The position numbers and the translations under genes are program-made. The notes below the pieces were generated by a model. The model did no database searches. It had not been told where the DNA came from and was given only the letters and a program-made list of their open reading frames with translations. From contig JAABYT010000042.1 of assembly GCA_011775625.1 (NCBI GenBank), forward strand, positions 9,860 to 50,623: DNA of 40,764 nucleotides. The letters run 5' to 3'. Shown here one piece after another: positions 5,346 to 20,647 of the stretch; position 1 is the stretch's first letter, and each line of letters begins with the position of its first letter. This DNA comes from Gammaproteobacteria bacterium (GTDB lineage Bacteria > Pseudomonadota > Gammaproteobacteria > HK1).

Positions 5346-6533
5346 TCAGGCCCGGCGCGCCTCCTCGGCGAGCAGCGGCCGCATGGCGCTGAGCCCGGCG
5401 ATCGGACCTAGCGCCAGCAGCACGAAAAGCCATCGGGTGTCGATGAAGTGCGCTACGTAGCTGAGCAGCTGGATGCTGACGACGGTGATGGAAAAGCCGA
5501 TGCAGTTCACGATGGTCAGCGCCGAGCCCACCAGCGACTCGGGGGCATTGAGGGCGTTCAGCGCCGAGAACTGCGGCGAGTCGCCGGCGACGGTGATGCC
5601 CCAGATGACGAGAAAAACCAGAAACGCAGCGGTCGGTGCGGCAAACAGCAACGGCGAGATCAGGCAGCAGATGCCGGAAAGAGCAAGCTGCGCTGATGCA
5701 ATACGCGCGCTCCCGAATCTCACGGCGAGCAGTCCTCCCGCCGCACAGCCAATGCTGCCCACGCCGATGATGATAAAAGCCCACAGTGGAATGTTGATGC
5801 TGACCACCATGCCGGTGCCCACGTGCGATGCGAGGATCACCGGCACGAAGGCCCAGAAAGCATAGAGCTCCCACATGTGCCCGAAATAACCAAAAGCCGA
5901 GGAGCGTAACTTCCTTGATTGAAATATCAGTCTGAGTGCGCCCGGATCGAATTTCGCACCGTGCCTGAGATAGGGTCCGTCCGGCACGAGCGCATACATG
6001 AGCAGACCGCCGAAGGCGGCGATGGCCGAAACGCTGACAACCACGCCGGTCCACGGCAGGCTCTTTCCGATACTTGCGAGCAGGTGCGGGAAAGCCGTTC
6101 CGAGCACCAGCGCGCCGACCAGGTAACCGAGCGCTCTGCCGAGACCCTGCTGGTACCATCCGGCGGCGATCTTCATTCCGATAGGATAGATTCCGGCAAG
6201 GAAGAAACCTGTCAGGAATCGAAACAGCATCAGCGAACCGAGACCGTCGGCGAGCAGATAAACGCTCGCGTTGCACAGCGCGCCGGCGAGCGAGCAAGCC
6301 AGAAAGATTCTGCGCGGTGAGAATCTGTCCGAGATTGCCATCACCGCAAACACCAGCGTGCCGCTTATGAAGCCGATCTGCACCGATGACGTCATGTATC
6401 CCAGTGCATCGGCTGACAGTTGCCAGAGTCGTTGCAGATCGGGGAGCACGGCGTTTCCCGCGAACCAAAGCGAGGTTGCGGTGAACTGAGAAAAGATAAT
6501 CGCGGGAAGAATGCGCCGGGGAGGCTTACCCAT
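5346..6533 (-). CDS. Major facilitator superfamily transporter
   Basis: A 395-residue polytopic inner-membrane protein with about 12 hydrophobic segments in two halves and the MFS A-like motif (SDRFSPRR, near residues 68-75) between helices 2 and 3. The N-terminus (FSQFTATSLWFAGNAVLPDL) resembles the NarK/CynX-like group of MFS carriers, but the substrate cannot be told. The start overlaps the end of the upstream regulator gene by 8 nt (ATGGGTAA), so the two are almost surely co-transcribed and translationally coupled. This makes the transporter the likely output of, or ligand supplier to, that regulator. Confidence 0.88.
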   Translation of the reverse strand: MGKPPRRILPAIIFSQFTATSLWFAGNAVLPDLQRLWQLSADALGYMTSSVQIGFISGTLVFAVMAISDRFSPRRIFLACSLAGALCNASVYLLADGLGSLMLFRFLTGFFLAGIYPIGMKIAAGWYQQGLGRALGYLVGALVLGTAFPHLLASIGKSLPWTGVVVSVSAIAAFGGLLMYALVPDGPYLRHGAKFDPGALRLIFQSRKLRSSAFGYFGHMWELYAFWAFVPVILASHVGTGMVVSINIPLWAFIIIGVGSIGCAAGGLLAVRFGSARIASAQLALSGICCLISPLLFAAPTAAFLVFLVIWGITVAGDSPQFSALNALNAPESLVGSALTIVNCIGFSITVVSIQLLSYVAHFIDTRWLFVLLALGPIAGLSAMRPLLAEEARRA

Positions 6534-9500
6534 AGCGTCGCACTTTCGAGGTCGCGCTCAATGCCTCGACCACGCTTCGATAGATAGCAGTGGTCTCCGG
6601 GGAGGGTGTCGTCTCGCACTGCGCCATCAGCGCGCGGCGGCAGCTGTCGTACACGTCGACCGCCTCGGCATGGCGTCCGAGCTGACCGCAACAGAGCATC
6701 AGGCGTCTGTAGAATCCTTCAGCGAGAGCATCAGCCTCGAGTCCACGGCGGTAAAGACGCGCTGCCTCATCCCAGCGCTCCTCGCCCTCCCAGAAACGGG
6801 CGAGCTCACCGACGGCGCGTATGAACTTGTTGCGATATGCCTCGCGCGCGTTCTCGTAACGCGGAGTCTTGCCCTCGTACGACATGAATGCCCCACGATA
6901 GATGTCGAAGAGTCTGTCGGTGAGCTCATGCACGCGGGATTGCGCCGGGTGCGACCGCATGAACGAAACACACGAGCGGATATCGTCCACGATGCAATCG
7001 AGCGCAGTGACGTCCAGCCAGCAGCAGCTCGCGTCGAGACTCAATCGGCCGTGTTTGAGAACGATGACCTTGTCATGCGCGAGAACCTTGCGAAGACGGT
7101 GCAATGCCGTCGTCAGCGATCGATGGGCGCACTCGGCATCGATGCGCGGCCACAGATCGGCAGCCAAGTCTCGTTCCCTGACGTCGTTAGCGCCGAAAGC
7201 AATGAGCGCCTTCAACAATTCGATTGGTTTCTGCTGTGGCTTGACAACCGTTTCCAGCGCTTCGTCGTTCTTGAGAATCTGGAACTCCCCCAAAGTGCGA
7301 ATTCTGATCGGCCATGGCCAGTCTTCAACGCCGAGCGGCGCCTTGTCGGGTATCAATTGCCTGCATCGAATGAGGCTCCTTACATAGTCGACCTCGATTC
7401 CCGCTTTGAGCGCGTGCACGCAGAGCTCGGACATGACGCGGGGCTGCCACCAGAGAAAGTGCGTAAAGCCGTATTCACGGCCGAGACCAAACGCGTAACG
7501 GAGCGCATTCAAGCCCGCGCGTCTACGCCCGTGCGAGAGCGCGATATGCGCGTAGATCGAGAACGCCGTGAATTCCATCAATCGGTTGTCGATTCCGCGC
7601 GCGAGCCTGCGCACGCGGCGCAGATTCGTCACTGTCCGCCGCTCGTCTCCGAGCTCGTGAAAAATCTGCGCCTGCGCCAGCCGGCACAGCAGCTCGTAAT
7701 ACGGACAGCCCGTCTCTACAGCGAGCCGCAAAGCGGTCTTCTGCTCCTGATAGGCATCGACGATGTCTCTGCGAAGCATCGCCAGCCAGGATCGATAATA
7801 ATGGTAGCTGCAACGATCGAGCCTTCGCGCACCCTCTCGATGCTGGTGCATCTTACCGAGTAGCTCCTCCGCGGATTCCAGATCACCTGCTCCGAGCGCC
7901 GCCGCAGCGCCGTTTGAAAGCAGATGATAACGCCACAGATTGACCCCGCTCGCCTGGCCGATCTCGACACCGTCGTAAACTGCCTCGAGACACCGATCAT
8001 GATTCGCCGTCAGCATGTAGTACATCGACTCGACGTCTTTCAGCACCGCCAGGGCCAGTGGTGTGACGTCGGGTGAGCGGCAGGTGGCGCGCATCTCGTC
8101 GATCAGCTCGCGCACGCGCCCGAAACGACCCGTATAGTTGAGCGTGATAGACATGAGAAGCTGAGCCGAGAGGCGCGCATTGGTATCGCTCAGCGCAGCC
8201 ACGCAACCGAAAGCCTGCTCAGCCCATCCTTTCATGTCGGGATGCTGAGGTTGGCGGAATACGAGCGCCACGAACAAGCTCACCGAAGCGCGAGCAACCG
8301 CTACCCTGTCGCTTCCGTCCGGCACGTTGGATAGCAGATTCACGGTCCGCTCGATCCACGGGTCGAGCAAGGACAGGTCGTCGAGCTCGTGAATGATTGC
8401 ATCGATGGCGCCTGCGCAGGCGAGCAGCCGCCCGCCTCCTTCTGCTCCAGCGCCCTGCTCGAAACCGCGGAAAACACGCTCGTAGAGCAGACGACTCTCG
8501 CGGGGTGCGGACGCGAATCGGCAGGCAGCTTTGCAGTAAAAGCACCACGGATCCGCTTCCAGAATCTCGTCGGGGATCTCCTCGAACCAGGTCTCGAGTG
8601 TTCCTGCCCGACCGTGGGCGAGCATGTCCTCGGCGTGCTCCAGGGCAAGGCGCTTCAAGCCGTGAAAATCGCCGTCCTCACGCAGCAGCACGGCGGCCTC
8701 CTCGGCCTCGCCTGCCGCCTCGAGCACCTCGACCGACAGCCGCCGCAGGCGCCTGTAGTCGCTCGCAGAGCACGATTGCTTGGCACGGGCACGCAGGAAT
8801 TCGCGCAGCAGAGGATGGTATTGGTAGATGGCCTCCCTGCCACCCGCCTTCAGGGACACGAAATGATGCTCGCGGTGCAGCGTCGGGAGAATCTCACCGG
8901 CCTGCGGATCGCCGGTGATGCGCACCGCCATCTCGGCAGTGAGCTCCGGGACATATGCGGTTTCGAGCAGAAGCCGTCGCGTGCGCTCGTCGAAGTTCTG
9001 AAAGATTTCTCCAGCCAGATAATCGAACACCACCTGGGGTGCCCGCGAGTTCGGCATCAGGTCGATATTCCCGTTTGCGAGCGAGTGCTCGAGCAACAGC
9101 ACCAGGCCCGCGGCCCATCCCTCTGTCTTTTGATAGAGCTCGTCGAGCTCGGCCTCGCTGAGTGTTCGTCCCCAAAGGGATACGAGGGCATCGGATTCAC
9201 AGCGCGTGAGCCGAAGATCCTGCCAGCCGAGCACCTGCAAGGCCCGATTTGCGCGCAGCCGCACCATTTCGGGAGGCGGCTCACCCCGACTGATGATGAC
9301 GATGCAGCCATCGGGCGGCAGCTCGGCGAGGGCATCGAGAACGACGGCATGAAACGCCGATTGCGAGGAAACGTCCTGGTAGTTGTCCAGGACAATCACG
9401 AATGGCGAGTGCAGATGGGCGTATAGAGTTCGGAAATAGCGCCGGGCGAAGGCCGACAGATCGGCGTGATACTCGGTTGTGAACAACGGCAGCGCGCCCG

Positions 9501-9768
9501 CGGCGGCAGTCTGCGCCATGTAGTAGAAGAACGTCGCGACATCGGAATCGCCGCAATCGAGCTGATACCAACACGACTCGGGGCCGCGCTGCTCGAGGTA
9601 GCTCGCGACGAGTGTCGTCTTTCCCGAGCCCGGCGGGCCGGTCACCCATACAACGGCGCTGCGATCGCGCTGATCGAGGACCGAGAACAGGCGCTCGCGG
9701 CCAAGCACGCCGGCGAGGCTCGGTCGCGTGATCTTCGCGCGCGAGGCTGGACGCGGATTCGACGCCAC
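6526..9768 (-). CDS. MalT-like STAND ATPase transcriptional regulator with C-terminal BTAD domain
   Basis: A 1080-residue regulator. The N-terminal NTPase has Walker A GPPGSGKT (residues 44-51) and a Walker B-like FVIVLDNY, followed by the QKTEGWAAGL segment seen in MalT/LuxR-type STAND proteins. A long middle region is helical and TPR-like. Instead of a LuxR helix-turn-helix, the C-terminus has an OmpR-type winged helix (from about residue 815: IRIRTLGEFQILKND, HRSLTTALHRLRKVL) and a BTAD helical-repeat domain (YRRLMLCCGQLGRHAEAVDVY). The start is the GTG at 9768, with GGGGGA 6 nt upstream; the reading frame continues to 10182, but that extension overlaps another gene and looks non-coding. 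It is coupled to the downstream MFS gene. The ligand is unknown. Confidence 0.88.
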   Translation of the reverse strand: MASNPRPASRAKITRPSLAGVLGRERLFSVLDQRDRSAVVWVTGPPGSGKTTLVASYLEQRGPESCWYQLDCGDSDVATFFYYMAQTAAAGALPLFTTEYHADLSAFARRYFRTLYAHLHSPFVIVLDNYQDVSSQSAFHAVVLDALAELPPDGCIVIISRGEPPPEMVRLRANRALQVLGWQDLRLTRCESDALVSLWGRTLSEAELDELYQKTEGWAAGLVLLLEHSLANGNIDLMPNSRAPQVVFDYLAGEIFQNFDERTRRLLLETAYVPELTAEMAVRITGDPQAGEILPTLHREHHFVSLKAGGREAIYQYHPLLREFLRARAKQSCSASDYRRLRRLSVEVLEAAGEAEEAAVLLREDGDFHGLKRLALEHAEDMLAHGRAGTLETWFEEIPDEILEADPWCFYCKAACRFASAPRESRLLYERVFRGFEQGAGAEGGGRLLACAGAIDAIIHELDDLSLLDPWIERTVNLLSNVPDGSDRVAVARASVSLFVALVFRQPQHPDMKGWAEQAFGCVAALSDTNARLSAQLLMSITLNYTGRFGRVRELIDEMRATCRSPDVTPLALAVLKDVESMYYMLTANHDRCLEAVYDGVEIGQASGVNLWRYHLLSNGAAAALGAGDLESAEELLGKMHQHREGARRLDRCSYHYYRSWLAMLRRDIVDAYQEQKTALRLAVETGCPYYELLCRLAQAQIFHELGDERRTVTNLRRVRRLARGIDNRLMEFTAFSIYAHIALSHGRRRAGLNALRYAFGLGREYGFTHFLWWQPRVMSELCVHALKAGIEVDYVRSLIRCRQLIPDKAPLGVEDWPWPIRIRTLGEFQILKNDEALETVVKPQQKPIELLKALIAFGANDVRERDLAADLWPRIDAECAHRSLTTALHRLRKVLAHDKVIVLKHGRLSLDASCCWLDVTALDCIVDDIRSCVSFMRSHPAQSRVHELTDRLFDIYRGAFMSYEGKTPRYENAREAYRNKFIRAVGELARFWEGEERWDEAARLYRRGLEADALAEGFYRRLMLCCGQLGRHAEAVDVYDSCRRALMAQCETTPSPETTAIYRSVVEALSATSKVRRYG

Positions 9769-9905
9769 GGACTTTCCCCCTTTCCGCAACGGCCATTTTA
9801 AGACGCCGGACGCGCTTGGCCAGCGATTTCGCCGCTTTGTAAGTTTCTGGTAAGGGCGACCAGCCGAGCGATCGGGCGCCGCCGCCGCAACCGGCGCCGG
9901 GGTGC

Positions 9906-10532
9906 TCAGCCCGACGCGAGCACCAGGACGCGAATTTCCGTCGGCGTCCCGCCGTTGCAGGGATTGTTGACCTGCGGACAGTTGGAGATAACGGCGAGGG
10001 CGTCCATCTCGGCGCGCAGCTCGACGAAGCCGCCCGCCCTCGAAGGGCTTTCGACGAATACCGTGTCCGCCAGCCGCACCTCGTCGTGGACGGGCACGTT
10101 GCAGAAGAAGTTGATGTTGGGAACGATGTCCTTGCGGCCGAGGCCGAATCGGGCGAGCGCGCTCAGAAAGTTCTCGCGGCACCCCGGGCAGTCCTGCACG
10201 CCATAGAGCATCTCGTTACTCGGTGCGCTGCAGCAGCCGGCGATGGTGTCGTGGGTGCCGCAGGTGTCCTCGGTGATCGTGAATATCGCCCGCGCAACGT
10301 CTGAATAAAGCACGTGCCCCTTCGTCAGGCGCAGCGTGCGCGCGGCCTTGAGCGTGTTGGGGGCGTGGTAGCGCTCCTCCGGCGCGTGAGCGTTGTAGCA
10401 GAGAAAATCGACACCCTGATTGCCGTGGACGTCGATTATGCGCAGGGATTGACCTTTTTCGATGACCCGCGCCCAGGGCGCGCCCGCCGGCACCGGCTCA
10501 TCGACGACCGCTCGTGCTGACTGATCACCCAT
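9906..10532 (-). CDS. Urea carboxylase-associated family protein (DUF1989)
   Basis: A 208-residue cytosolic protein of the DUF1989/urea-carboxylase-associated family. Diagnostic segments are HGNQGVDFLCYNA, the cysteine cluster GTHDTIAGCCSAPSNEMLYG, CPGCRENFLSAL, the PNINFFCNVPV stretch and the terminal CPQVNNPCNGGTPTEIRV. The conserved Cys and His residues suggest metal binding. Family members usually sit beside urea carboxylase/allophanate hydrolase or in riboswitch-controlled guanidine operons; neither partner is here, so this one is an orphan. The ATG at 10532 has GGGGAGAG 5 nt upstream. It diverges from hslR. Its exact biochemical role is not established. The 137 bp between its end and the regulator start show nothing recognisable. 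Confidence 0.85.
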   Translation of the reverse strand: MGDQSARAVVDEPVPAGAPWARVIEKGQSLRIIDVHGNQGVDFLCYNAHAPEERYHAPNTLKAARTLRLTKGHVLYSDVARAIFTITEDTCGTHDTIAGCCSAPSNEMLYGVQDCPGCRENFLSALARFGLGRKDIVPNINFFCNVPVHDEVRLADTVFVESPSRAGGFVELRAEMDALAVISNCPQVNNPCNGGTPTEIRVLVLASG

Positions 10533-10601
10533 GACATCTCTCCCCGCTTCGGCGTTTATACTGCGCCATCCGGCGAGCTGACGGCAAATCACGCGCACTC
10601 T

Positions 10602-11012
10602 ATGGCCGAACCCGAAATACCAACCGAAGCGCAGACCCAGCGCCTCGACAAGTGGCTGTGGGTCGCACGCTTCTTCAAAACCCGTGCTCAGGCGGCCGCC
10701 GCCATCACGGGCGGAAAAGTGCAGGTCGCCGGCGAGCGCGTGAAGCCGTCGCGCCGCGTGGGCCCCGGGACCCGCCTCGAGATCCGTCGCGGACCGGTGC
10801 GATGGCTGATCGTTGTGCGCGCCGTCGCCGCGCAGCGACGCCCGGCCGAGGAGGCTGCGCGTCTTTACGCGGAGACCGAGGAGAGCATCGCTCACCGGGA
10901 GCAGGAAGCCGCACGGCGCAGGCTCGAGGCGGGGGCGCGCCGCGAACGCCTCGGCAAGCCCTCGAAACACGCGCGCCGCGACGCGACCCGGCTCAAATCC
11001 CGCGGCACCTAG
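10602..11012 (+). CDS. hslR: Hsp15 ribosome-associated heat shock protein (S4 domain)
   Basis: A 136-residue RNA-binding protein. In E. coli, Hsp15 binds free 50S subunits carrying a stalled nascent peptidyl-tRNA and helps rescue them. The N-terminal S4 domain is clear (RLDKWLWVARFFKTRAQAAA, then GGKVQVAGERVKPSRRVGPG), followed by a very basic Arg-rich C-terminal tail. The length matches the family. There is no good ribosome binding site before the ATG at 10602. It is the only plus-strand gene before the TetR operon, and the 85 bp after it carry that operon's promoter. Confidence 0.93.
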   Translation: MAEPEIPTEAQTQRLDKWLWVARFFKTRAQAAAAITGGKVQVAGERVKPSRRVGPGTRLEIRRGPVRWLIVVRAVAAQRRPAEEAARLYAETEESIAHREQEAARRRLEAGARRERLGKPSKHARRDATRLKSRGT

Positions 11013-11035
11013 ACGCAGCGGCGCCTGCCTGGCGC

Positions 11036-11066
11036 TTGACCGGCGCCGGCGGTGGTGGCGTAATAC
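11036..11066 (+). promoter_or_regulatory. Candidate promoter of the tetR-mutase operon
   Basis: TTGACC (11036-11041) and TAATAC (11061-11066) are good -35 and -10 matches, though the 19-nt spacer is long. The operator at 11067-11080 begins directly after the -10 box and would cover the transcription start, a geometry that suits autorepression. Confidence 0.45.
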
Positions 11067-11080
11067 CAAACAACCGTTTG
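11067..11080 (+). promoter_or_regulatory. PsrA-like operator CAAAC-N4-GTTTG upstream of tetR
   Basis: The inverted repeat CAAAC AACC GTTTG lies 17 nt before the tetR start codon. An overlapping arrangement, AAACAA-CCGT-TTGTTT, gives 6-nt arms. The first form matches the remembered binding pattern of PsrA, a TetR-family fatty-acid-responsive repressor (G/C-AAAC, 2-4 nt, GTTT-G/C). It is the only AT-rich island in a very GC-rich stretch. Confidence 0.65.
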
Positions 11081-11097
11081 TTTTTTGATTTGAGCGT

Positions 11098-11691
11098 ATG
11101 CCAGTCGCCGCACCCGCAGGCACACCCCGGCACGACAACCGGCGTCGGGACGTTCTCGATGCCGCCGCCGGTCTCATCTCCCGGCACGGGTATCACGCCA
11201 CCTCCATGCGCGACATTGCCCGCGCCACCGGCATGCTGCCAGGGTCCATCTACTATCACTTCGCTTCCAAGGACGCGCTGCTGGTGGCGGTGTACGCCGA
11301 GGGCGTGCAGCGCATCGCCGGGCGCGTGGATCGCGTCGTGGCTGCACAGACGACACCCTTGAAGCGTCTGGAGGCAGCCTGCGTCGCGCACCTGGAGATG
11401 CTGCTCGCCGACAGCGACTACGCGCAGGTCGTCGTGCGCGTTCTGCCGCAGGACGTGCCGGCGGCGAGCGCACGCCTCACGGCGCTGCGCGACGACTACG
11501 AGGCGCGTTTCCGCCGTCTCATTGCCGCGCTCGGGCTGCCGCGCGCCCGCCGGCGCTACGCGCGCCTCACCCTGCTCGGTGCCTTGAACGCTGCCCAGTC
11601 CTGGTACCGGCCGGGCGGCGACGCGCCGGCGCGCATCGCGCGGGGCATTCTCGCGTGCCTGCGCGAGCCGCTCGAGGCCGCGAAGCGATGA
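11098..11691 (+). CDS. TetR-family transcriptional regulator of the mutase operon
   Basis: A 197-residue one-component regulator. The N-terminal DNA-binding domain has the TetR helix-turn-helix (HATSMRDIARATGMLPGSIYYHFASKDALL, about residues 38-67); the C-terminal helical domain would bind a ligand and dimerise. Its own promoter carries a PsrA-like operator, so it most likely autorepresses the operon and is released by an acyl-CoA related to the mutase substrate; that is inference. Its stop overlaps the start of the B12-binding subunit by 4 nt (ATGA), so the operon is translationally coupled from the first gene. The ligand is unknown. Confidence 0.9.
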   Translation: MPVAAPAGTPRHDNRRRDVLDAAAGLISRHGYHATSMRDIARATGMLPGSIYYHFASKDALLVAVYAEGVQRIAGRVDRVVAAQTTPLKRLEAACVAHLEMLLADSDYAQVVVRVLPQDVPAASARLTALRDDYEARFRRLIAALGLPRARRRYARLTLLGALNAAQSWYRPGGDAPARIARGILACLREPLEAAKR

Positions 11692-12116
11692 TATCGCGAC
11701 GCGCGGAGCCGGTGCGCGTGCTCGTCACCAAGCTCGGCCTCGACGGACACGACCGGGGCAGCCGTGTTGTCGCGGCCTTTCTGCGCGATGCCGGCATGGA
11801 GGTGATCTACACGAGCCCCTGGCAGGACGTCACCGCGGTCGTGCAGCTCGCGCTCCAGGAGGACGTCGACGTCGTCGGCGTCAGCTCGCTCGCCACCGAC
11901 CATCTGCTCGTGCCGAAGCTCACCGAGGCCCTCGCGCAAGCGGGACTGGGACACATACGCGTCGTGGTCGGCGGCATCGTGCCCGACGAGGACGAGAGCA
12001 TGTTGAAGAGATCGGGGGTGAGTCACGTCTTCCACCCGGGAAGCACCCGCGAAGAGATCGTCGCGGAAGTCGACGCACTCGCACGCGCCGCGCGTCGAGA
12101 ACGTGATGGCGATTGA
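11688..12116 (+). CDS. Acyl-CoA mutase, small cobalamin-binding subunit
   Basis: A 142-residue stand-alone B12-binding domain. It has the base-off cobalamin motif D-x-H-x-x-G as LDGHDRGS (D19, H21, G24), with His21 the predicted lower axial ligand of cobalt, followed by VDVVGVSSLATDH and VVVGGIVPDED, the conserved loops around the nucleotide tail. It pairs with the next gene as a split adenosylcobalamin mutase, as in isobutyryl-CoA and 2-hydroxyisobutyryl-CoA mutases. Starts at the ATG at 11688, overlapping tetR by 4 nt. An earlier ATG at 11655 lies inside tetR and would add 11 unlikely residues. Confidence 0.92.
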   Translation: MISRRAEPVRVLVTKLGLDGHDRGSRVVAAFLRDAGMEVIYTSPWQDVTAVVQLALQEDVDVVGVSSLATDHLLVPKLTEALAQAGLGHIRVVVGGIVPDEDESMLKRSGVSHVFHPGSTREEIVAEVDALARAARRERDGD

Positions 12117-12134
12117 ACGCCAGCGGAGGATCAC

Positions 12135-13817
12135 ATGAGTCAGCGACCGATTCAGTTGCCGTTGCCGGGATTCGACACCGCCCGGGCGCGTTGGCAGGAC
12201 GCCTACAACCAGCAGATGCCTGGAGAGAAAACCCGGCGCAATCGCTCGGGCATCGAGATCCGGCCGCTGTACACCCCGCAGGACTGGCGCGGCGAACGCT
12301 ATCTCGAGCAACTGGGTTTCCCGGGCGAGGTGCCGATGACCCGCGGTATCTACCCGAGCATGCACCGCGGCCGAACGTGGAGCCAGCGCCAGCTCATCGG
12401 GCTCGGGACACCACAGGATTACAACGCGCGGCTCGAGCGAATCCTTGCGGCGGGCGGATCGGCGCTGAGTCTGATTCCATGCAACTCGGTCTACCGCGGC
12501 TACGACGCCGACGAGGTGGACGCGGTTCTGCTCGGCACCTGCGGCGCGGTGGTAAACACCGTCGAAGACATGCAAGCCTGCTTCGAGGGCGTCGACATCG
12601 GATCGATCTCGACAGCCATGAACGACCCCCTGCCCTTCACGCTGCTGGCACTGCTGCTCGCGGTAGCGAAGCAGCGCGGCGTGCCCTGGTGCAAGGTGAC
12701 CGGCACCTCGAACCAGAGCGACTACATCTCCCACTTCGTCGCCAACCACATGTTTTTTCGCATCGCGCTGCCGGGCTCGCGCCGGATTCTCGTCGATCAC
12801 ATCGATTTTGCCGCACGCAACCTGCCGGGCTGGAACCCGCTCTCGGTGGTCGGTCAGCACATGCAGCAGGCCGGTGCCACACCCGCCGAGGCCATGGGCC
12901 TGACGCTGTCGACCGCGGTGCAGTACGCCGAGGATTGCATCGCGCGGGGCATGGAGCCGGATGTGTTCCTGCCGCGCTTCACTTTCTTCTTCGATATTTC
13001 CATGAGCTTCTTCGAGGAGATCGCGAAGATGCGCGCCGGGCGGCGCATCTGGTGCCGGCTCACACGCGAGCGCTTCGGCGCGCGCGATCCGCGTGCCTGG
13101 CGTTTCAAGTTTCACGGCCAGACCTCGGGCGTCGACCTGACCCGCCAGCAGCCATTGAACAACATCGCGCGAGTCACGACCCAGGCAATGGCCGGAATTT
13201 TCGCAGGACTTCAGTCGCTGCACACCGACTCGTACGACGAGGTGCTGAGCGTGCCCACCGAAGACGCCGCACGTATCGCCGTCAGCACCCAGAACATTCT
13301 GCGCGAGGAGGCGCACCTCACCGATGTCATCGATCCGCTCGGTGGCTCGTACTACGTGGAGAGGCTCACCGACGACATGGAGGAGGCGATCATCGCGGTC
13401 ATGCAGCGCATCGAGGAGGCGGGCGGCATGTACCACGCGGCCGAATCCGGGCTCGTGCAATCGATGATCGGCACCTCCGCGCTCGCCTTTCAGGAGCAGG
13501 TCGAGAGCGGCGAGCAGACGATCGTCGGCGTGAATGCCTACCGGGTTGAAGAAAACTCCGACGCGCACGCGCCGCTCGCGCGCCCGCGAGCCGAGGCCAT
13601 GCAGGCGCAGCTCGACGCCCTCGCCCGCTACAAGCGCGGGCGATCCATGGGCGAGGTGCGAGCCGCGCTCGACAGGCTCGCCCGCAGCGTCGCCGACGAA
13701 GGCGACAACGTCTTCGAAAAGGTCGTCGATGCGGCGATTGCCGGCGCTACCCACGGCGAGATCGTCGCAAAGCTGCGCGAGGAGATGGGATTCGGCGAGC
13801 CCCTGGTGCAGGTGTGA
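12135..13817 (+). CDS. Adenosylcobalamin-dependent acyl-CoA mutase, large catalytic subunit with non-canonical substrate pocket
   Basis: A 560-residue TIM-barrel subunit of the methylmalonyl-CoA mutase superfamily, lacking the C-terminal B12 domain, which is the preceding gene. Family landmarks are [31 protein letters not shown] (catalytic His242), [25 protein letters not shown] and [10 protein letters not shown]. Aligned by eye to Propionibacterium MCM, R80, R85, S112, Q194 and H242 match Arg82, Arg87, Ser114, Gln197 and His244. However, Tyr89 is Leu87, the DLPT loop after Phe117 is replaced (IPCNSVYRG), and Arg207, which holds the substrate carboxylate, becomes Asn204 (Ala203 or His205 if gaps shift). 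It is therefore unlikely to act on methylmalonyl-CoA. GGAGG lies 5 nt before the ATG. No epimerase or propionyl-CoA carboxylase is nearby. Confidence 0.9.
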
Positions 13818-14764
13818 GCCAGGCCCTCTCCCGGACCGAGCGCATCGCCGCGCTGATGAACGGCGACCCGGCCGCGCTGGCCCGCGCCATCAGCGACGTC
13901 GAACGCCAGCGACCGGCCGCGCGCAGCACGCTCGAGGCCATCCAGCCCCATCTCGGCCGTGCCCGGGTCATTGGCGTCACGGGCGTGCCCGGTGCCGGTA
14001 AGTCGACGCTGATATCGCGCTATGTCACCGAGCTCAGGCGTGCCGGGCGGCGCGTCGGCGTCGTCGCGGTCGACCCCAGCAGCCCGATCTCCGGCGGCGC
14101 GGTGCTCGGCGATCGCATTCGCATGGCCGAGCACGCGACCGACCCCGGAGTCTTCGTCCGCTCGCTCGCCTCGCGCGGTCACGCCGGCGGGCTTTCGCCG
14201 ACAGCGACCCATGTCGTGGATCTCATGGATGCCGCCGGATGGGACCGCATCATCGTCGAGACCGTCGGCGCCGGACAGGGCGAGGTCGACATCGCGGACG
14301 CCGCCGACGTGCGCATCGTGGTGTCCGCTCCCGGACTCGGCGACGACGTGCAGGCGCTCAAGGCGGGCATTCTGGAGATCGCCGACGTTCTCGTGGTCAA
14401 CAAAGCCGATCTCGCCGGCGCGGATCAGACCGCAGCACAGCTCGCGTCCATGCTTGCGCTGCGCGCCGAGCACGCCCGGGACGTGAGCATCTGCAAAACG
14501 ACGGCGACCACCGGCCAAGGCGTCGCCGAGCTTGCCGTCATCGTCGAGACCCGGCTTGCCGCGGGCGATTCGCGACGCGGCTGCGCCGCACAACGCGCGC
14601 GCCGCATGGTGGCGACGGCCGCCGGGAATCTGCTCACCAGGGAGCTGCGCGAGCTCGAAGCGCCATGGCTGCAGGAGATCTGCGAGAGGCTGCAGCGTGG
14701 GCAAAGCGATCTGGAGAGCGCCGCGCGGGCCGTGCTGCGCTCGGCAAAGCTCGTCGATGAATGA
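13814..14764 (+). CDS. meaB: MeaB/ArgK-family GTPase chaperone of the B12 mutase
   Basis: A 316-residue SIMIBI G protein that gates adenosylcobalamin delivery to acyl-CoA mutases and protects them from inactivation. Visible motifs are the P-loop [12 protein letters not shown], the switch regions [22 protein letters not shown] and [33 protein letters not shown], and the base-recognition NKAD. The family-typical VETVGVGQSE reads [10 protein letters not shown] here, a mild variation. Starts at a GTG overlapping the mutase stop by 4 nt (GTGA). Placement directly after the mutase subunits implies a dedicated partner. Confidence 0.93.
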
Positions 14765-15167
14765 CATCGGCAAGCGCGTGAAGGGTTTGGCGGCTCGCGA
14801 CGCCTTCGTCGCGTATCTCGGGGCGGAGTGCGTGGACGCGGGGCCGGGGATGGCCGTCGTGCGCATGACGGTCGGCGAGCAGCACGTGAACTTCAACGGC
14901 ACCTGCCACGGCGGCGTGCTCTTCTCGCTCGCCGACACCGCCTTCGGCCTGGCGTCCAACTCCCACGGCCGGGTCGCCGCGGCCGTCGGTGCTCATATCG
15001 GCTTCACCGCGCCGGTGCGCGTGGGCGACACGCTGATCGCCACCGCAACCGAGCTGAGCCGCAGCAATCGCATCGGCACTTACCGCGTGGACGTGCGCAC
15101 GAGCGACGACGCCACGGTGGCGACATTCACGGGAACGGTCTACATCGCTGAGCGCGAGCACCCCTAG
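14757..15167 (+). CDS. PaaI-type hotdog-fold acyl-CoA thioesterase
   Basis: A 136-residue single-domain hotdog thioesterase. The active-site helix shows VNFNGTCHGGVLFSLADTAF, matching the PaaI pattern N-x-x-x-x-C-H-G-G with a downstream Asp (the LAD motif), then GAHIGFTAPVRVGDTLIATA. PaaI enzymes hydrolyse aromatic or bulky acyl-CoAs and often act as a safety valve that frees CoA. Its ATG overlaps the meaB stop by 8 nt (ATGAATGA), making it the last gene of the coupled operon. Together with the altered mutase pocket it suggests that the pathway handles an acyl-CoA that can accumulate. Confidence 0.88.
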   Translation: MNDIGKRVKGLAARDAFVAYLGAECVDAGPGMAVVRMTVGEQHVNFNGTCHGGVLFSLADTAFGLASNSHGRVAAAVGAHIGFTAPVRVGDTLIATATELSRSNRIGTYRVDVRTSDDATVATFTGTVYIAEREHP

Positions 15168-15182
15168 GGGGAGCCCGGGCAG

Positions 15183-15198
15183 GCGCGCTCTGGCGCGC
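15183..15198. terminator. GC hairpin between convergent genes
   Basis: GCGCGC-TCTG-GCGCGC, a perfect 6-bp stem with a 4-nt loop, sits between the end of the thioesterase gene and the end of the convergent coiled-coil gene. No T run follows on either side, so it is only a possible bidirectional transcription barrier. Confidence 0.35.
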
Positions 15199-15201
15199 GT
15201 C

Positions 15202-15636
15202 TCACGTGTCCGCTTCGAGATCCCGCGCGAACGCCATCGCCGAAGCGGCCATCTGGGAGGCCCGGCTCTGCAGCGCCAGAGCTTCCCGTCGAAGCGCTTC
15301 CCACTTGGGCTTCAACGCTTGTTCGCGCGCCTCGAGCTCCCGCTCGCGCTCCCGAAGCGCCTCGGCGCGGGCTTCGAGCGCCTTGCTCTGCAGCCGGACC
15401 GCGGCCTTCGCCTCGGCAATCTCATCGCGCACGCGCTCCGATTCGACTTGCGCCGCCTTTGCGGCCGCGATCGCCTTCTCCGCCTCTTCCCGGGCGGCGC
15501 GAAATTCCGCGGTGTGTTTTTTGAGCTTATCCAGCTGCTTGCGAAGCGTTCTGTCGTCGCCGAGCATCTCGAGGAGCTGCTTCGCTTCGGACAATGCAGC
15601 CAGGGACGGCGGGATCTTGTTGGCTACCCCTATCAT
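15202..15636 (-). CDS. Coiled-coil protein, unknown function
   Basis: I do not recognise a family. The 144-residue protein is almost entirely charged helix rich in Ala, Glu, Arg and Lys. After a short N-terminus (MIGVANKIPPSLAAL) it forms a predicted long coiled coil from about residue 15 to 130 (LRKQLDKLKKHTAEFRAARE, ALRERERELEAREQALKPKW). There is no signal peptide or membrane segment. I chose the ATG at 15636 because GGGGGA lies about 7 nt upstream; earlier ATGs (15663 and 15681) add up to 15 residues. It follows the YigI-like gene on the same strand by 23 bp. Confidence 0.65.
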   Translation of the reverse strand: MIGVANKIPPSLAALSEAKQLLEMLGDDRTLRKQLDKLKKHTAEFRAAREEAEKAIAAAKAAQVESERVRDEIAEAKAAVRLQSKALEARAEALRERERELEAREQALKPKWEALRREALALQSRASQMAASAMAFARDLEADT

Positions 15637-15659
15637 CCGGTTCCCCCTTTCCAGGGGAT

Positions 15660-16121
15660 TCATCCTACGAGATATGTGCACGTCGCGGAAGCCACCCGCT
15701 CGTCTCTGTCGTTGTGCAGCTCCGCGTAGATGACGGCAATGCGATTTCCCGAGCGAATCACCCGCGCGGTGGCAACGAACGACTCTCCGGATCCCGGCAG
15801 CAGATAGTCGACGCGCATGTCGATGGTGCCCAGCCGCGAGAAGCGCTCCATCTTGTCCTCGAGGCTGCTGCTGCGGATACGCTTGGCGACGCCGAGAAAG
15901 GCCATCAATCCGGCGGTCACATCGAGGGTCGCCGAGATCACCCCGCCGTGAAGAATATTGCGCATGTAGTTGCCGACCAGATCGTCGCGCATTTTGAAAC
16001 CGAGCCGCACCTGCTCGTCGGCGAGCTCCTTGATTTCCAGGCCAAGTAGCTGATTGAAGGGAATTTTCGAGAACAGATCGCGCACGACGCGATAGACGTC
16101 GGCGTGATCCCTGTGCGTCAT
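15660..16121 (-). CDS. YigI-like hotdog-fold thioesterase
   Basis: A 153-residue hotdog protein of the YigI type. Characteristic segments are FNQLLGLEIKELADEQVRLGF, NILHGGVISATLDVTAGLMA (the active-site helix with HGGV and Asp) and IDMRVDYLLPGSGESFVATA. The E. coli homologue has been described as a medium- and long-chain acyl-CoA thioesterase. It is cytosolic. The start ATG at 16121 has only a weak ribosome binding site. It is followed by the coiled-coil gene and preceded by a small membrane protein gene, all on the minus strand with short gaps, so possibly one transcript. Confidence 0.88.
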   Translation of the reverse strand: MTHRDHADVYRVVRDLFSKIPFNQLLGLEIKELADEQVRLGFKMRDDLVGNYMRNILHGGVISATLDVTAGLMAFLGVAKRIRSSSLEDKMERFSRLGTIDMRVDYLLPGSGESFVATARVIRSGNRIAVIYAELHNDRDERVASATCTYLVG

Positions 16122-16149
16122 ACGCGGAGCAGTCGCCCGTGCCGGAGCC

Positions 16150-16473
16150 TCAGGCTCCGATCATCAGGGACTTGAGGTTGGCGGCTGCCAGAAGACCGAC
16201 GAGGATGATCAGGCTGGAAACGACCAGCACCGACAACCCCAGCACCACCACCGAGGCGAGCGTGCGCGGCGCGCGGTCGAACACGATGCCCTTGTTGACC
16301 CAGGTGAGAACGGCGACCAGCAGGGGAATGGAAAGGAAGAACAGACCGCCGATGACGAGATTCGAACCGACGGCCACCTCGGCGACGACCAGCACCAGGC
16401 AGGCGCCCCAGAACGCCGTCGCCACCGAAAGGTTCTGTCGACAGCTGCGCATGATTGGGTCACTGCTGCTCAT
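16150..16473 (-). CDS. Small inner-membrane protein, unknown function
   Basis: A 107-residue protein with three or four hydrophobic helices (roughly residues 17-35, 40-58 and 71-97) and a polar N-terminus. I cannot assign a family with confidence; the arrangement recalls DUF485 or DUF4212-like small membrane partners, but no diagnostic motif is seen. GGGAGG lies 5 nt before the ATG at 16473, so it is very likely translated. It ends 28 bp before the YigI-like gene. Confidence 0.7.
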   Translation of the reverse strand: MSSSDPIMRSCRQNLSVATAFWGACLVLVVAEVAVGSNLVIGGLFFLSIPLLVAVLTWVNKGIVFDRAPRTLASVVVLGLSVLVVSSLIILVGLLAAANLKSLMIGA

Positions 16474-16613
16474 CGCTGCCTCCCGGGGCTAACTCTAGAT
16501 GACCGCGTCCGGCCGGGCAATCGGCACCTCCACAGCTTGCATCCCGTCACCCCGCGGTTATAGTAGCGCTCCCCCGGATGCTGCACGCCGGGGTGCCCCC
16601 GAGGGAGACAGCC

Positions 16614-17033
16614 GTGCACCCCAAGCCTCTGACCGCCAAGGAAGCCTGGCAGCTGCTCCGGGACGAGCCGCGCGCGGTGCTGGTGGACATCCGCTCGACC
16701 ATGGAGTTTCTTTTCGTCGGTCACCCCCGCGGCGCCCTGCACGTCGCCTGGATCGACGAGCCCGAGTGGACCGTCAATGCGCACTTCGTCACCGACGTGC
16801 GCAAGGTGATGCTCGGCGGCGCTACCGCCCACGGGGAGATTGCCGGCGCGCCGGTGATCCTCATCTGTCGCAGCGGCAAGCGCTCAATCGATGCCGGCAT
16901 CGCTCTTCTGGAGGCCGGCTTCAGCGCCGTGTACCACGTCGATGAAGGCTTCGAGGGCGACCTCGACGAGCACCACCAACGCAGCTCGCTCGGTGGCTGG
17001 CGCTATCACGGCTTGCCGTGGGAGCAGTGCTGA
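16614..17033 (+). CDS. Rhodanese-domain sulfurtransferase
   Basis: A 139-residue single-domain rhodanese. The active-site loop is ICRSGKRS with catalytic Cys85, and the fold motifs VLVDIRSTMEF and AVYHVDEGFEGDLDE are present. Such proteins carry persulfide sulfur or detoxify cyanide and sulfide; the physiological partner is not shown by context. I chose the GTG at 16614 because GGGAG lies 6 nt upstream; an in-frame ATG at 16578 has no site and would add 12 residues. It converges on the ROK kinase gene with 46 bp between stops. Confidence 0.88.
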   Translation: MHPKPLTAKEAWQLLRDEPRAVLVDIRSTMEFLFVGHPRGALHVAWIDEPEWTVNAHFVTDVRKVMLGGATAHGEIAGAPVILICRSGKRSIDAGIALLEAGFSAVYHVDEGFEGDLDEHHQRSSLGGWRYHGLPWEQC

Positions 17034-17079
17034 CGATCTGAACGGCTGGAACGCCGTCCTCTGCGGTGTGGACCCGGAT

Positions 17080-17982
17080 CTACGCACCCCGTGGCCAGAG
17101 CCACGCGGCGCCGCGCACGCCGCTCGCATCGCCGTGGACCGGTGGACGCAGGGGCGTATCCACCCGGTCGGAGAATACGAACTCGCCCCACAGACGGGGC
17201 ACGCTCTCGTAGAGGCGCGTGATCGCCGACAGCCCGCCGCCGAGCACGATGACGTCCGGGTCGAGGATATTGATGACGTGCGCGAGGCCGCGCGCGAGGC
17301 GATGCTCGTAGCGAATCAGGCAGGCCTCGGCCCGCTGCTCGCCGGACGCGGCAAGGCGCACGATCTCCGCGGCGCTCGACGCTGCCTCCGATCCCTCCCG
17401 GTAGTCTCTCTCGAGACCCGGTCCGGACAGAAAGGTCTCGATGCAGCCGTGGCGTCCACAGTAGCAGCGCAGCCCCGGCAGCTCGCTCGCCCGGGGCCAG
17501 GGCAACGGATTGTGTCCCCATTCCCCGGCAATGGCCTGGCGCCCGGCAATCACCCGGCCCTCGATGACGATACCGCCGCCAACGCCCGTGCCCAGAATCA
17601 CACCGAAGACTGTCCGCGCGCCTTTCGCGGCTCCGTCCACGGCCTCGGAGAGCGCAAAGCAGTTGGCATCGTTGGCGACACGGATGCGGCGATCGAGGGC
17701 ATCGCTCAGATCCGCGTCGAGGCGCTCGCCGATGAGGCGCGTGGAGTTGGCGTTCTTGACGAGCCCCGTGTGCGGAGAGATCGCGCCCGGGGTCGCAACG
17801 CCGACCGATGCGCGTTCTCCAACCTCTGATTCCAGGTCCTCGACCAGCTCCACGATCGCGCGCAGCAGGTCCGCGTAGCTCTCCCGGGGCGTCGGGCGGC
17901 GGCGGCGCGTGACAATCTCGCCCTCATCGCCGAGAACGACCGCTTCTATCTTGGTGCCGCCGAGATCGACGCCGATGCGCAT
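17080..17982 (-). CDS. ROK-family sugar kinase, fructokinase (Mak)-like
   Basis: A 300-residue sugar kinase. It shows the N-terminal phosphate motif GVDLGGTKIE, VANDANCFALSEA, the ATP-site GVILGTGVGGGIV and the ROK zinc signature GHNPLPW...CYCGRHGCIE with its His and Cys ligands. The sequence around the zinc motif, including the SGPGLERDY that follows, is closest to Mak-type fructokinases or N-acetyl-sugar kinases; the substrate is inferred only at that level. Starts at the ATG at 17982 with a weak GGGG upstream. The divergent membrane-protein gene begins about 50 bp away. No sugar transporter is adjacent. Confidence 0.9.
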   Translation of the reverse strand: MRIGVDLGGTKIEAVVLGDEGEIVTRRRRPTPRESYADLLRAIVELVEDLESEVGERASVGVATPGAISPHTGLVKNANSTRLIGERLDADLSDALDRRIRVANDANCFALSEAVDGAAKGARTVFGVILGTGVGGGIVIEGRVIAGRQAIAGEWGHNPLPWPRASELPGLRCYCGRHGCIETFLSGPGLERDYREGSEAASSAAEIVRLAASGEQRAEACLIRYEHRLARGLAHVINILDPDVIVLGGGLSAITRLYESVPRLWGEFVFSDRVDTPLRPPVHGDASGVRGAAWLWPRGA

Positions 17983-18033
17983 CTCAGACCCCGACGTTGA
18001 GTATGCGGCTCATGCGGTCCAGAATCATTGAGA

Positions 18034-18570
18034 ATGCTGAGTCAATTCCAGTCCTTGCGCGTGATCGTCCAGCCCTTCGTGCAGATCTGTCTGCTGCGAC
18101 AGGGGCCCCAGGACCTGCCTACCTCGGGCATTTTACTGGCCATCACACTGAGCGCCTACACGTTACTGACGGCGCTGCTCTCCAACGTGTCCATGAGCGC
18201 GGCCAACGCCGTCGTCTGGGGACTGATCAGCACGGTGCTGATGGTGGCCTTCACGGTGATACTTCTGTCCGTGCAACGTCGCCCCGCACGGCTCGTGCAG
18301 ACCCTTGCGGCGCTCGCCGGCACGGGTGCCCTGTTGACGCTCATCGCGCTGCCCGTGTTCGGCTGGCTGCATGGCGCCGATCTGAAGGCCGGCGAAGGCG
18401 CCCTCGCGTGGCTCATCGTTGTCGTGCTCACGCTCTGGAGCCTGGCGGTCACCGGACACATCCTCCGACACGCGCTTTCCGTCCCGTACTTTGTCGGCTT
18501 GGTGCTCGCGGTGGTGTTCTATCTTATATCCGTCTCGGTATTCAGAACGCTGTTTCCCGCCGCCGCCTGA
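18034..18570 (+). CDS. Four-helix membrane protein upstream of mpl, unknown function
   Basis: A 178-residue integral membrane protein with a short cytosolic N-terminus and four or five hydrophobic helices (LLAITLSAYTLLTALL, VVWGLISTVLMVAFTVILL, LAALAGTGALLTLIALPVFG, ALAWLIVVVLTLWSLAV, FVGLVLAVVFYLISV). It resembles Yip1-type or uncharacterised gammaproteobacterial membrane proteins but has no catalytic motif that I can name. A TTG six nt upstream (18028) is an alternative start. It ends 11 bp before mpl, so it is probably co-transcribed with that gene. Confidence 0.7.
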   Translation: MLSQFQSLRVIVQPFVQICLLRQGPQDLPTSGILLAITLSAYTLLTALLSNVSMSAANAVVWGLISTVLMVAFTVILLSVQRRPARLVQTLAALAGTGALLTLIALPVFGWLHGADLKAGEGALAWLIVVVLTLWSLAVTGHILRHALSVPYFVGLVLAVVFYLISVSVFRTLFPAAA

Positions 18571-18581
18571 TCCGCTCCGCC

Positions 18582-19949
18582 ATGCGCATCCACATCCTCG
18601 GCATCTGCGGCACGTTCATGGCCGGCATCGCGCGCCTCGCGCGCGAGCTCGGTTTCTCGGTGACCGGCTCCGATGCCAACGCCTACCCGCCCATGAGCGA
18701 GCAGCTGGCGGCGCTCGGCATCGACGTCATGGAGGGCTACGACCCGGCCCACCTGGACCCGGTACCGGACTGCGTCGTCATCGGCAATGCAATGACCCGC
18801 GGTAACCCGGCGGTCGAGCACGTCCTCGATCACGCTCTGCCGTTCACCTCCGGGCCCGCCTGGCTCGCCGAGCACGTGCTCGCGGGTCGCTGGGTGCTGG
18901 CGGTCGCCGGGACGCACGGCAAGACCACCGGCGCCAGCATGCTCGCCTGGATCCTCGAGCACGCCGGACTCGCCCCGGGATTCCTCATCGGCGGCGTTCC
19001 GGAGAACTTCGGCGTGTCCTCGCGCATGGGCGAGCGCTATTTCGTTGTCGAGGCGGACGAGTACGACAGCGCCTTTTTCGACAAGCGCTCGAAGTTCGTC
19101 CACTACCTGCCGAGGACGCTGGTGGTGAATAATCTCGAATTCGACCATGCCGACATCTTCGAGGATCTCGCCGCGATAAGCCGGCAGTTCCACCATCTGG
19201 TGAGAACGGTGCCTTCGAACGGACGCATTCTGCGCCCGATTCCCGATGCCGAAATCGATCGACTCATGGACATGGGTTGCTGGACGCCCCTCGAGACGTT
19301 CACGACGAGCGCCGCCTCAGCCGACTGGCGGGCGAACATGACCAGTGCCGACGGCGCCACCTTCGAGGTGGCGCGCAGCGGCGTCACCCTCGGCTCGGTG
19401 AGCTGGCCGCTGATAGGCCGGCACAACGTGTGCAACGCGTTGGCGGCGATCGGCGCAGCCGCGCACGCGGGCGTTGATCCGGCCGACGCCTGCGCGGCGC
19501 TCGCGACCTTTCGCAATGTCAAGCGGCGCCTCGAGGTGCGCGGCATGATCGATGGTGTGACCGTCTACGACGATTTCGCCCATCACCCGACCGCCATCGG
19601 TGCGACGCTCGCGGCGCTTCGCAGCCACATCGGCGCCGGGCGTATCATCGCCGTGCTCGACCCGGCGTCCAACACCATGCGCAGCGGCGCGCACAAGGAC
19701 ACACTTGGCGCTGCCCTCGCCGCCGCCGACACGGCCTGGATCTACCGCTCCCCGTCCATCGCGTGGAACATCGAGACGCTCGAGCAGACGCCCGGCGCCG
19801 ATATTCGCTTGCGCGACGACGTCGAGGCGTTGGTTCACGCAGTGAGCGAGCAGGCAACGAGCGACGATCACGTACTCGTCATGAGCAACAGCGGATTCCA
19901 GGGCTTCCATCAGCGCCTGATGAACGCACTCAGCGAGCGGCATCGATGA
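18582..19949 (+). CDS. mpl: UDP-N-acetylmuramate:L-Ala-gamma-D-Glu-meso-DAP ligase
   Basis: A 455-residue cytosolic Mur-ligase-family enzyme that attaches recycled murein tripeptide directly to UDP-MurNAc. The N-terminus MRIHILGICGTFMAGIARLA and SDANAYPPMSEQL are diagnostic of Mpl. The ATP-binding AGTHGKTTGAS, the FLIGGVPENFG substrate loop, VEADEYDSAFFDKRSKF, NNLEFDHADIF and DDFAHHPTAI follow in order. The length matches the family. Its stop overlaps the next gene by 4 nt (ATGA). Presence of Mpl implies a meso-DAP peptidoglycan and cell-wall recycling. Confidence 0.96.
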   Translation: MRIHILGICGTFMAGIARLARELGFSVTGSDANAYPPMSEQLAALGIDVMEGYDPAHLDPVPDCVVIGNAMTRGNPAVEHVLDHALPFTSGPAWLAEHVLAGRWVLAVAGTHGKTTGASMLAWILEHAGLAPGFLIGGVPENFGVSSRMGERYFVVEADEYDSAFFDKRSKFVHYLPRTLVVNNLEFDHADIFEDLAAISRQFHHLVRTVPSNGRILRPIPDAEIDRLMDMGCWTPLETFTTSAASADWRANMTSADGATFEVARSGVTLGSVSWPLIGRHNVCNALAAIGAAAHAGVDPADACAALATFRNVKRRLEVRGMIDGVTVYDDFAHHPTAIGATLAALRSHIGAGRIIAVLDPASNTMRSGAHKDTLGAALAAADTAWIYRSPSIAWNIETLEQTPGADIRLRDDVEALVHAVSEQATSDDHVLVMSNSGFQGFHQRLMNALSERHR

Positions 19950-20560
19950 CCATCGCGCAGGAAAACCTGGACGTCGCCCTTTTCCCGGTGCACACGGTCC
20001 TGTTTCCCGGCGGACCGGTTTCTTTGCGTATCTTCGAGCCGCGCTACCTCGATCTGGTGAGCGCGTGCCTTCGCAACGACGAGCCCTTCGGAGTCTGCCT
20101 CATCCAGAGCGGCCAGGAAGCGGGCGATGCGGCCATGCCGCACCTCACCGGGACCTTTGCCCAAATCGTCGACTGGAATCGCGGCGACGACGGGCTGCTC
20201 TCGATCAGCGCGCGCGGCGGGCAGCGTTTTCGCGTGCAGGAAACGCGCATCGAGCCCAACCAGCTGCTGCGCGGCACCGTTCAGCCGCTGCCTGCCGAAC
20301 CCGAGAAACCGCTTCCCGACGACTGCCGTTACATGACCGACGTGCTCGAACAGATTTTCGAACATGCCTCCGAGATCTACAAAGATCTGCCCAGACGGCC
20401 CGACGACGCGTCGTGGGTAGGCTACCGCCTGGCGGAGATCCTCTCGCTGCCGCTGGTGCGCCGTCAGTACTTTCTCGAGCTCGAGGATCCGCTCCTGCGG
20501 CTCAGCCAGCTCGACCAGATCATGCGCGCCATGTCGGAGTCGGCCGACGACGACGACTGA
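19946..20560 (+). CDS. Lon N-terminal (substrate-binding) domain protein
   Basis: A 204-residue stand-alone Lon substrate-binding domain without the ATPase or protease parts. It begins with the typical VALFPVHTVLFPGGPVSLRIFEPRYLDLV and contains FGVCLIQSG and GQRFRVQE. Such proteins are common in proteobacteria, but their role, possibly in protein quality control, is not settled. The ATG at 19946 overlaps the mpl stop, so the two are translationally coupled. Confidence 0.9.
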   Translation: MTIAQENLDVALFPVHTVLFPGGPVSLRIFEPRYLDLVSACLRNDEPFGVCLIQSGQEAGDAAMPHLTGTFAQIVDWNRGDDGLLSISARGGQRFRVQETRIEPNQLLRGTVQPLPAEPEKPLPDDCRYMTDVLEQIFEHASEIYKDLPRRPDDASWVGYRLAEILSLPLVRRQYFLELEDPLLRLSQLDQIMRAMSESADDDD

Positions 20561-20647
20561 AGGAGTCTGAGCCAATCGGCAGCGCATCTGTTAAGCTCCG
20601 CGCTCGGGCTGTTTGCACCGCAAACCGCCCCGAAAGGAAGTCATCGA

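Follow-up and report, generated by a model that had tools for sequence, protein, structure and literature searches.

Operon structure and candidate operator

The window studied here, that is, the whole 40,764-nt stretch of DNA that was analysed, corresponds to positions 9,860-50,623 of the forward strand of contig JAABYT010000042.1 (assembly GCA_011775625.1, Gammaproteobacteria bacterium). Positions 11098-15167 of the window are occupied by an operon of five overlapping or abutting genes, encoding a TetR regulator, the B12 subunit and the catalytic subunit of a mutase, MeaB, and a PaaI-type thioesterase. The features of the locus are as follows.

11036-11041 and 11061-11066: promoter-like pair TTGACC / TAATAC with 19-bp spacing, longer than ideal; the palindrome lies just downstream
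11067-11080, no strand: palindrome CAAACAACCGTTTG, candidate TetR operator with the core AAC-N4-GTT, just upstream of tetR
11098-11691, plus strand: TetR-family regulator, 197 aa (Pfam TetR_N and TetR_C_24)
11688-12116, plus strand: cobalamin-binding small subunit of the mutase, 142 aa (TIGR00640, 134 bits against a cut-off of 57; His-on motif DGHDRG)
12135-13817, plus strand: catalytic large subunit, 560 aa (TIGR00641, 484 bits)
13814-14764, plus strand: MeaB-type G-protein chaperone, 316 aa, GTG start (TIGR00750, 300 bits against a cut-off of 241)
14757-15167, plus strand: PaaI-type hotdog acyl-CoA thioesterase, 136 aa (TIGR02286, 119.2 bits, barely above the cut-off of 118.9)

The rechecked coordinates, together with the Pfam and NCBIfam assignments (TetR, B12-binding, MM_CoA_mutase, MeaB, and 4HBT/PaaI), are in agreement with the initial annotation, which had described the same five genes and the same junctions: 4-nt overlaps between tetR and the B12 subunit and between the large subunit and meaB, an 18-nt gap between the two mutase subunits, and an 8-nt overlap between meaB and the thioesterase gene. 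A separate B12 subunit and MeaB are encoded within one operon, one of the features by which the clade of isovaleryl-CoA/pivalyl-CoA mutases (PCM) is recognized. The palindrome is likely the operator of the TetR regulator, as judged from its sequence and place; its position directly after the promoter-like pair fits an autoregulated TetR repressor. The AAC-N4-GTT core recurs in 43 of 76 loci, where it precedes the mutase gene by approximately 1.0-1.2 kb; by shuffling, 4.0 such loci would be expected. A search for a cobalamin riboswitch in the window found none.

Extension of the operon beyond these five genes was considered and rejected, the neighbours being conserved with it no further than in the closest kin. 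These non-operon neighbours are a DUF1989 gene, a BTAD-type regulator, an S4-type protein, and the minus-strand genes after 15167. Upstream of the operon and on the opposite strand lie the large BTAD/AAA-type regulator (6526-10182, minus strand, up to 1218 codons) and the DUF1989 gene (9906-11177, minus strand); no link of either to the operon was found.

Substrate-site residues of the catalytic subunit

The large subunit was aligned with methylmalonyl-CoA mutase (MCM; human 2xij, M. tuberculosis 6oxc, and Propionibacterium 5req), 2-hydroxyisobutyryl-CoA mutase (HCM; 4r3u and Xaut_5021), and the fused isobutyryl-CoA mutase IcmF. Residues R80, R85, S112, Q194, and H242 correspond to R82, R87, S114, Q197, and H244 of MCM, so that the conserved CoA, thioester, and B12-handling residues are retained in the catalytic chain. 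At the two specificity sites, Leu87 is found in place of MCM Tyr89 and Asn204 in place of Arg207 (Propionibacterium numbering), the latter assignment being anchored by the correspondence of DYISHF to DILKEF. The initial annotation had proposed both the five retained residues and the replacement of Tyr89, and had named an Arg at position 207 as the finding that would speak against it; the alignment upholds the former, and Asn, not Arg, aligns at the latter position. The loop after Ser112 has the form SLIPCNSV(F/Y)RG, compared with VAFDLPTHRG in MCM. Ile114 occupies the site of Asp117 in HCM. In that enzyme Asp117 contacts the substrate hydroxyl, and contact of the window loop with substrate or cofactor is thus likely.

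All 86 aligned orthologues, Xaut_5043 among them, have Leu87 and Asn204, and the operon is found again in many phyla; neither chance nor a sequencing error can therefore account for this pair. The position of Ile114 is Ile or Leu in all but a few of the 86. Loss of Tyr89, of the carboxylate-binding Arg207, and of the HCM Asp117 makes the charged and hydroxylated substrates known for these enzymes less likely. An AlphaFold model of the large subunit (pLDDT 77, pTM 0.83) matches the solved HCM (4r3u) and MCM structures with TM 0.85-0.89; its confidence is low near residues 60-81 and 366-398, and for this reason pocket geometry was not read from it. PDB searches found no solved PCM structure.

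Distribution and phylogeny

A scan of 84,980 species yielded 280 confirmed relatives, of which 80 were kept. The latter come mostly from Alpha-, Beta-, and Gammaproteobacteria, and also from Nocardioides, Prescottella, Acidimicrobiales, Myxococcota, and SAR324. The 86 orthologues, 61-84% identical, span Proteobacteria, Actinobacteria, Myxococcota, and SAR324. Within the window's own class a high-similarity gene occurs in 5 of 369 genomes, and within its family in 3 of 17.

The 32 PCM-type sequences in the tree, including the window protein and Xaut_5043, form one clade on a long stem (branch support 100/100), distinct from MCM and HCM; the places of the long-branched IcmF, L020, L028, L137, and L138 are unsure. 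The window protein thus falls outside true MCM, clustering with which the initial annotation had named as a finding that would speak against it. Membership in MCM is rejected on the tree and on Leu87/Asn204 instead of Tyr89/Arg207, and membership in HCM on the tree and on Ile114 and Leu87 instead of Asp117 and Ile90; ICM/IcmF is rejected on residues (Leu/Asn instead of Phe/Gln), a true IcmF being encoded elsewhere in the genome. Assignment to ethylmalonyl-CoA mutase (ECM), whose characterised members are not among the sequences compared, is disfavoured by the missing carboxylate-binding Arg.

Here we describe two pocket subtypes within the clade, which, together with the promoter palindrome common to many loci, are new in this study. 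The form SLIPCNSV(F/Y)RG, found in the window, is the commoner one and covers most of the sampled clade; SLLPC(C/N)SGFRG characterises the sub-clade of the Xanthobacter enzyme, outside which the window protein lies. The subtypes differ in V119 and Y/F120 of the former versus G119 and F120 of the latter.

Several loci deserve mention in their own right. A plasmid of Sphingobium sp. YC-XJ3 (L117) carries two copies, at 5744-12621 and 14449-21617, of a unit in which the PCM-type operon is accompanied by divergent thiolase and AMP-ligase genes; they lie among the IS elements IS6100 and ISSp1, as if recently duplicated. Strongly diverged two-subunit acyl-CoA mutases, accompanied by meaB, are found in Sphingobium sp. 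TomTYG72 (L137:4938-8052; VTGFGK/LEYDLATTNG), near a P450 gene, and in Paraburkholderia sp. PGU19 (L138:4857-7934; IVGFGA/VVDTLGQEAI), after acyl-CoA dehydrogenase and enoyl-CoA hydratase genes; the specificity motifs of these two match no class compared.

The closest named relative and the gene neighbourhood

The closest named relative is Xaut_5043 from plasmid pXAUT01 of Xanthobacter autotrophicus Py2, with a 68% identical large subunit. The Xanthobacter genes Xaut_5045-5044-5043-5042-5041 represent the same five types in the same order (tetR, B12 subunit, large subunit, meaB, PaaI), and Xaut_5043 has the same Leu/Asn pair at MCM positions 89 and 207; its loop, SLLPCCSGFRG, is that of the other subtype. 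We take Xaut_5043/5044, with the MeaB protein Xaut_5042, to be the authentic, assayed PCM; the assays are reportedly those of Kitanishi, Cracan, and Banerjee in a 2015 J Biol Chem paper. A second large subunit on pXAUT01, Xaut_5021, has HCM residues and lies beside GntR, PaaK-like ligase, and meaB genes; with such residues and HCM-type neighbours it is HCM, not PCM.

Among loci with enough flanking sequence, the mutase gene is accompanied by the B12 subunit in 76 of 78, by tetR in 63 of 75, by meaB in 64 of 79, and by the thioesterase in 36 of 77. An AMP-forming ligase is found near the operon in 16 loci, most of them also with a Liv-type ABC transporter, and it occurs with both loop subtypes. 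In Sulfitobacter the operon is followed directly by a run of genes for carboxyltransferase, crotonase, biotin carboxylase, and acyl-CoA dehydrogenase, in that order.

In Xanthobacter the ligase and ABC transporter genes directly follow the operon (Xaut_5040-5034), whereas in the window's own genome they reside on a separate contig, C58. There (L145:7808-14961), a ligase-ATPase-two permeases-binding protein-ATPase cassette, in the order of Xaut_5039-5034, lies beside a fused IcmF (1870 bits against an equivalog cut-off of 1500) and not beside the PCM-type operon. Also next to the cassette is a series of genes of the kind typical for leucine degradation, encoding acyl-CoA dehydrogenase, thiolase, carboxyltransferase, crotonase, and biotin carboxylase.

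Contig C58, 46245-47822 and about 50600-57900 (L132): fused IcmF and the leucine/isovalerate-type degradation run

An orthologue of the ligase is present in 5 of 5 operon-bearing genomes versus 19 of 364 other genomes of the class (Fisher p = 8e-7; by genus, p = 1e-5), values that are indications only, since the genomes are related. Genomes of the window's family often have the ligase near IcmF, and this ligase may therefore serve both mutases. The genome also encodes an AdoCbl adenosyltransferase.

Proposed function and alternative substrates

Taken together, the operon probably encodes an AdoCbl-dependent acyl-CoA mutase of the PCM clade that converts pivalyl-CoA to isovaleryl-CoA; judged from residues and relatives, interconversion of these two thioesters is the most likely activity of the window enzyme. 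The initial annotation had proposed a bulky or uncharged acyl-CoA, possibly of the pivalyl/isovaleryl type, and this view gains support from Xaut_5043/5044 being closest, with five genes shared in order. The 100/100 branch, the loss of Tyr89, Arg207, and Asp117, the ligase and Liv-type transporter genes near some relatives' operons and on C58, the ligase co-occurrence, the Sulfitobacter gene order, and the AdoCbl adenosyltransferase gene also count in favour of PCM. Of the two options that it left, a pivalyl/isovaleryl-type or a novel substrate, the first is supported and the second is not needed, with the reservation that the window and Xanthobacter enzymes do not have the same loop. Because of this difference specificity may differ too, and the exact substrate of the window enzyme is one that we infer.

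In the proposed mechanism, MeaB from the operon would load and repair a mutase made up of the catalytic TIM-barrel subunit and a B12 subunit on its own chain. Homolytic cleavage of the Co-C bond would give a 5'-deoxyadenosyl radical, which would abstract a methyl hydrogen of pivalyl-CoA; the CoA-thioester group would then move to the neighbouring carbon, and the resulting isovaleryl-CoA could be consumed by the leucine-degradation enzymes. TetR would hold the operon off through the promoter palindrome as long as no acyl-CoA or acid of the pathway is available, and the thioesterase probably releases CoA from stalled acyl-CoAs. We infer, rather than observe, the substrate, the direction, the TetR ligand, and the thioesterase role. 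Several observations count against the assignment to PCM. The window operon itself is devoid of an acyl-CoA ligase or dehydrogenase gene; the MCC-beta (carboxyltransferase) gene of this genome reads in two frames, being either a pseudogene or an assembly error; and the clade is widespread, although we do not know pivalate to be abundant in nature.

The wide distribution with no obvious pivalate source would also suit a PCM relative for which pivalyl-CoA is a side substrate. Its natural substrate would then be some other monocarboxylic acyl-CoA, quaternary or bulky and branched, such as a longer 2,2-dimethylacyl-CoA derived from terpenoids. V119 and Y/F120 of the window loop, set against G119 and F120 in Xanthobacter, point the same way, and the Liv-type transporter and ligase are not substrate-specific. 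However, the ligase/transporter cassette is common to both loop subtypes, which suggests one substrate class, and this genome has the cassette beside IcmF and leucine degradation; we thus regard another natural substrate as possible but rather unlikely. Similarly tentative is the proposal that the SLIPCNSV(F/Y)RG subtype is a separate mutase with its own quaternary-carbon acyl-CoA, not pivalyl-CoA, serving the breakdown of gem-dimethyl compounds in many bacteria.

A two-subunit isobutyryl-CoA/n-butyryl-CoA mutase would likewise have an uncharged pocket, and IcmF handles both isobutyryl- and pivalyl-CoA (PMC10481361, PMC9974510). Nevertheless, IcmF has Phe/Gln at the two specificity sites where the window enzyme has Leu/Asn, and a second isobutyryl-CoA mutase activity would be redundant in a genome that already has IcmF, making this assignment improbable. 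Least probable is a divergent methylmalonyl-CoA mutase standing in for the missing canonical MCM: automatic family models do label the large subunit MCM-like, and a search of the assembly, which is 95% complete, found no true MCM, but Tyr89 and Arg207 are both lost in 86 of 86 orthologues, the clade lies outside MCM, and the orthologue-bearing genomes G007 and G001 have a separate canonical MCM.

The pivalyl-CoA mutase assignment has a wider meaning. Quaternary-carbon acids block ordinary beta-oxidation, and a B12 mutase turning them into isovaleryl-CoA would open them to leucine degradation. That so many lineages carry the clade, and that its members share an operator and, in part, an uptake and activation cassette, makes its natural role testable.

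Comparison with known mutases

MCM (1req, 2xij, and 6oxc) has in common with the window enzyme the fold, the B12 handling, and the five retained residues; identity is below 40%, and the window enzyme lacks Tyr89/Arg207 and has its B12 domain on a separate chain. IcmF (4xc6 and 5cjw) acts, as the window enzyme would, on uncharged branched acyl-CoA and also converts pivalyl-CoA (PMC10481361), but it is one fused chain with the Phe/Gln pair, whereas the window enzyme has two subunits and IcmF is a separate gene in the same genome. HCM (HcmAB; 4r3u, Xaut_5021), the best solved-structure match to the large subunit by sequence (about 37% identity), is likewise a two-subunit enzyme with a dedicated MeaB-type chaperone; Ile90, Asp117, Gln at the Arg207 position, and an operon with genes for a GntR regulator and a PaaK-like ligase are its own. 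Overall, the kind of enzyme is already known, although little studied, and the window operon is a new member of the PCM clade, with a pocket of the uncharacterised subtype.
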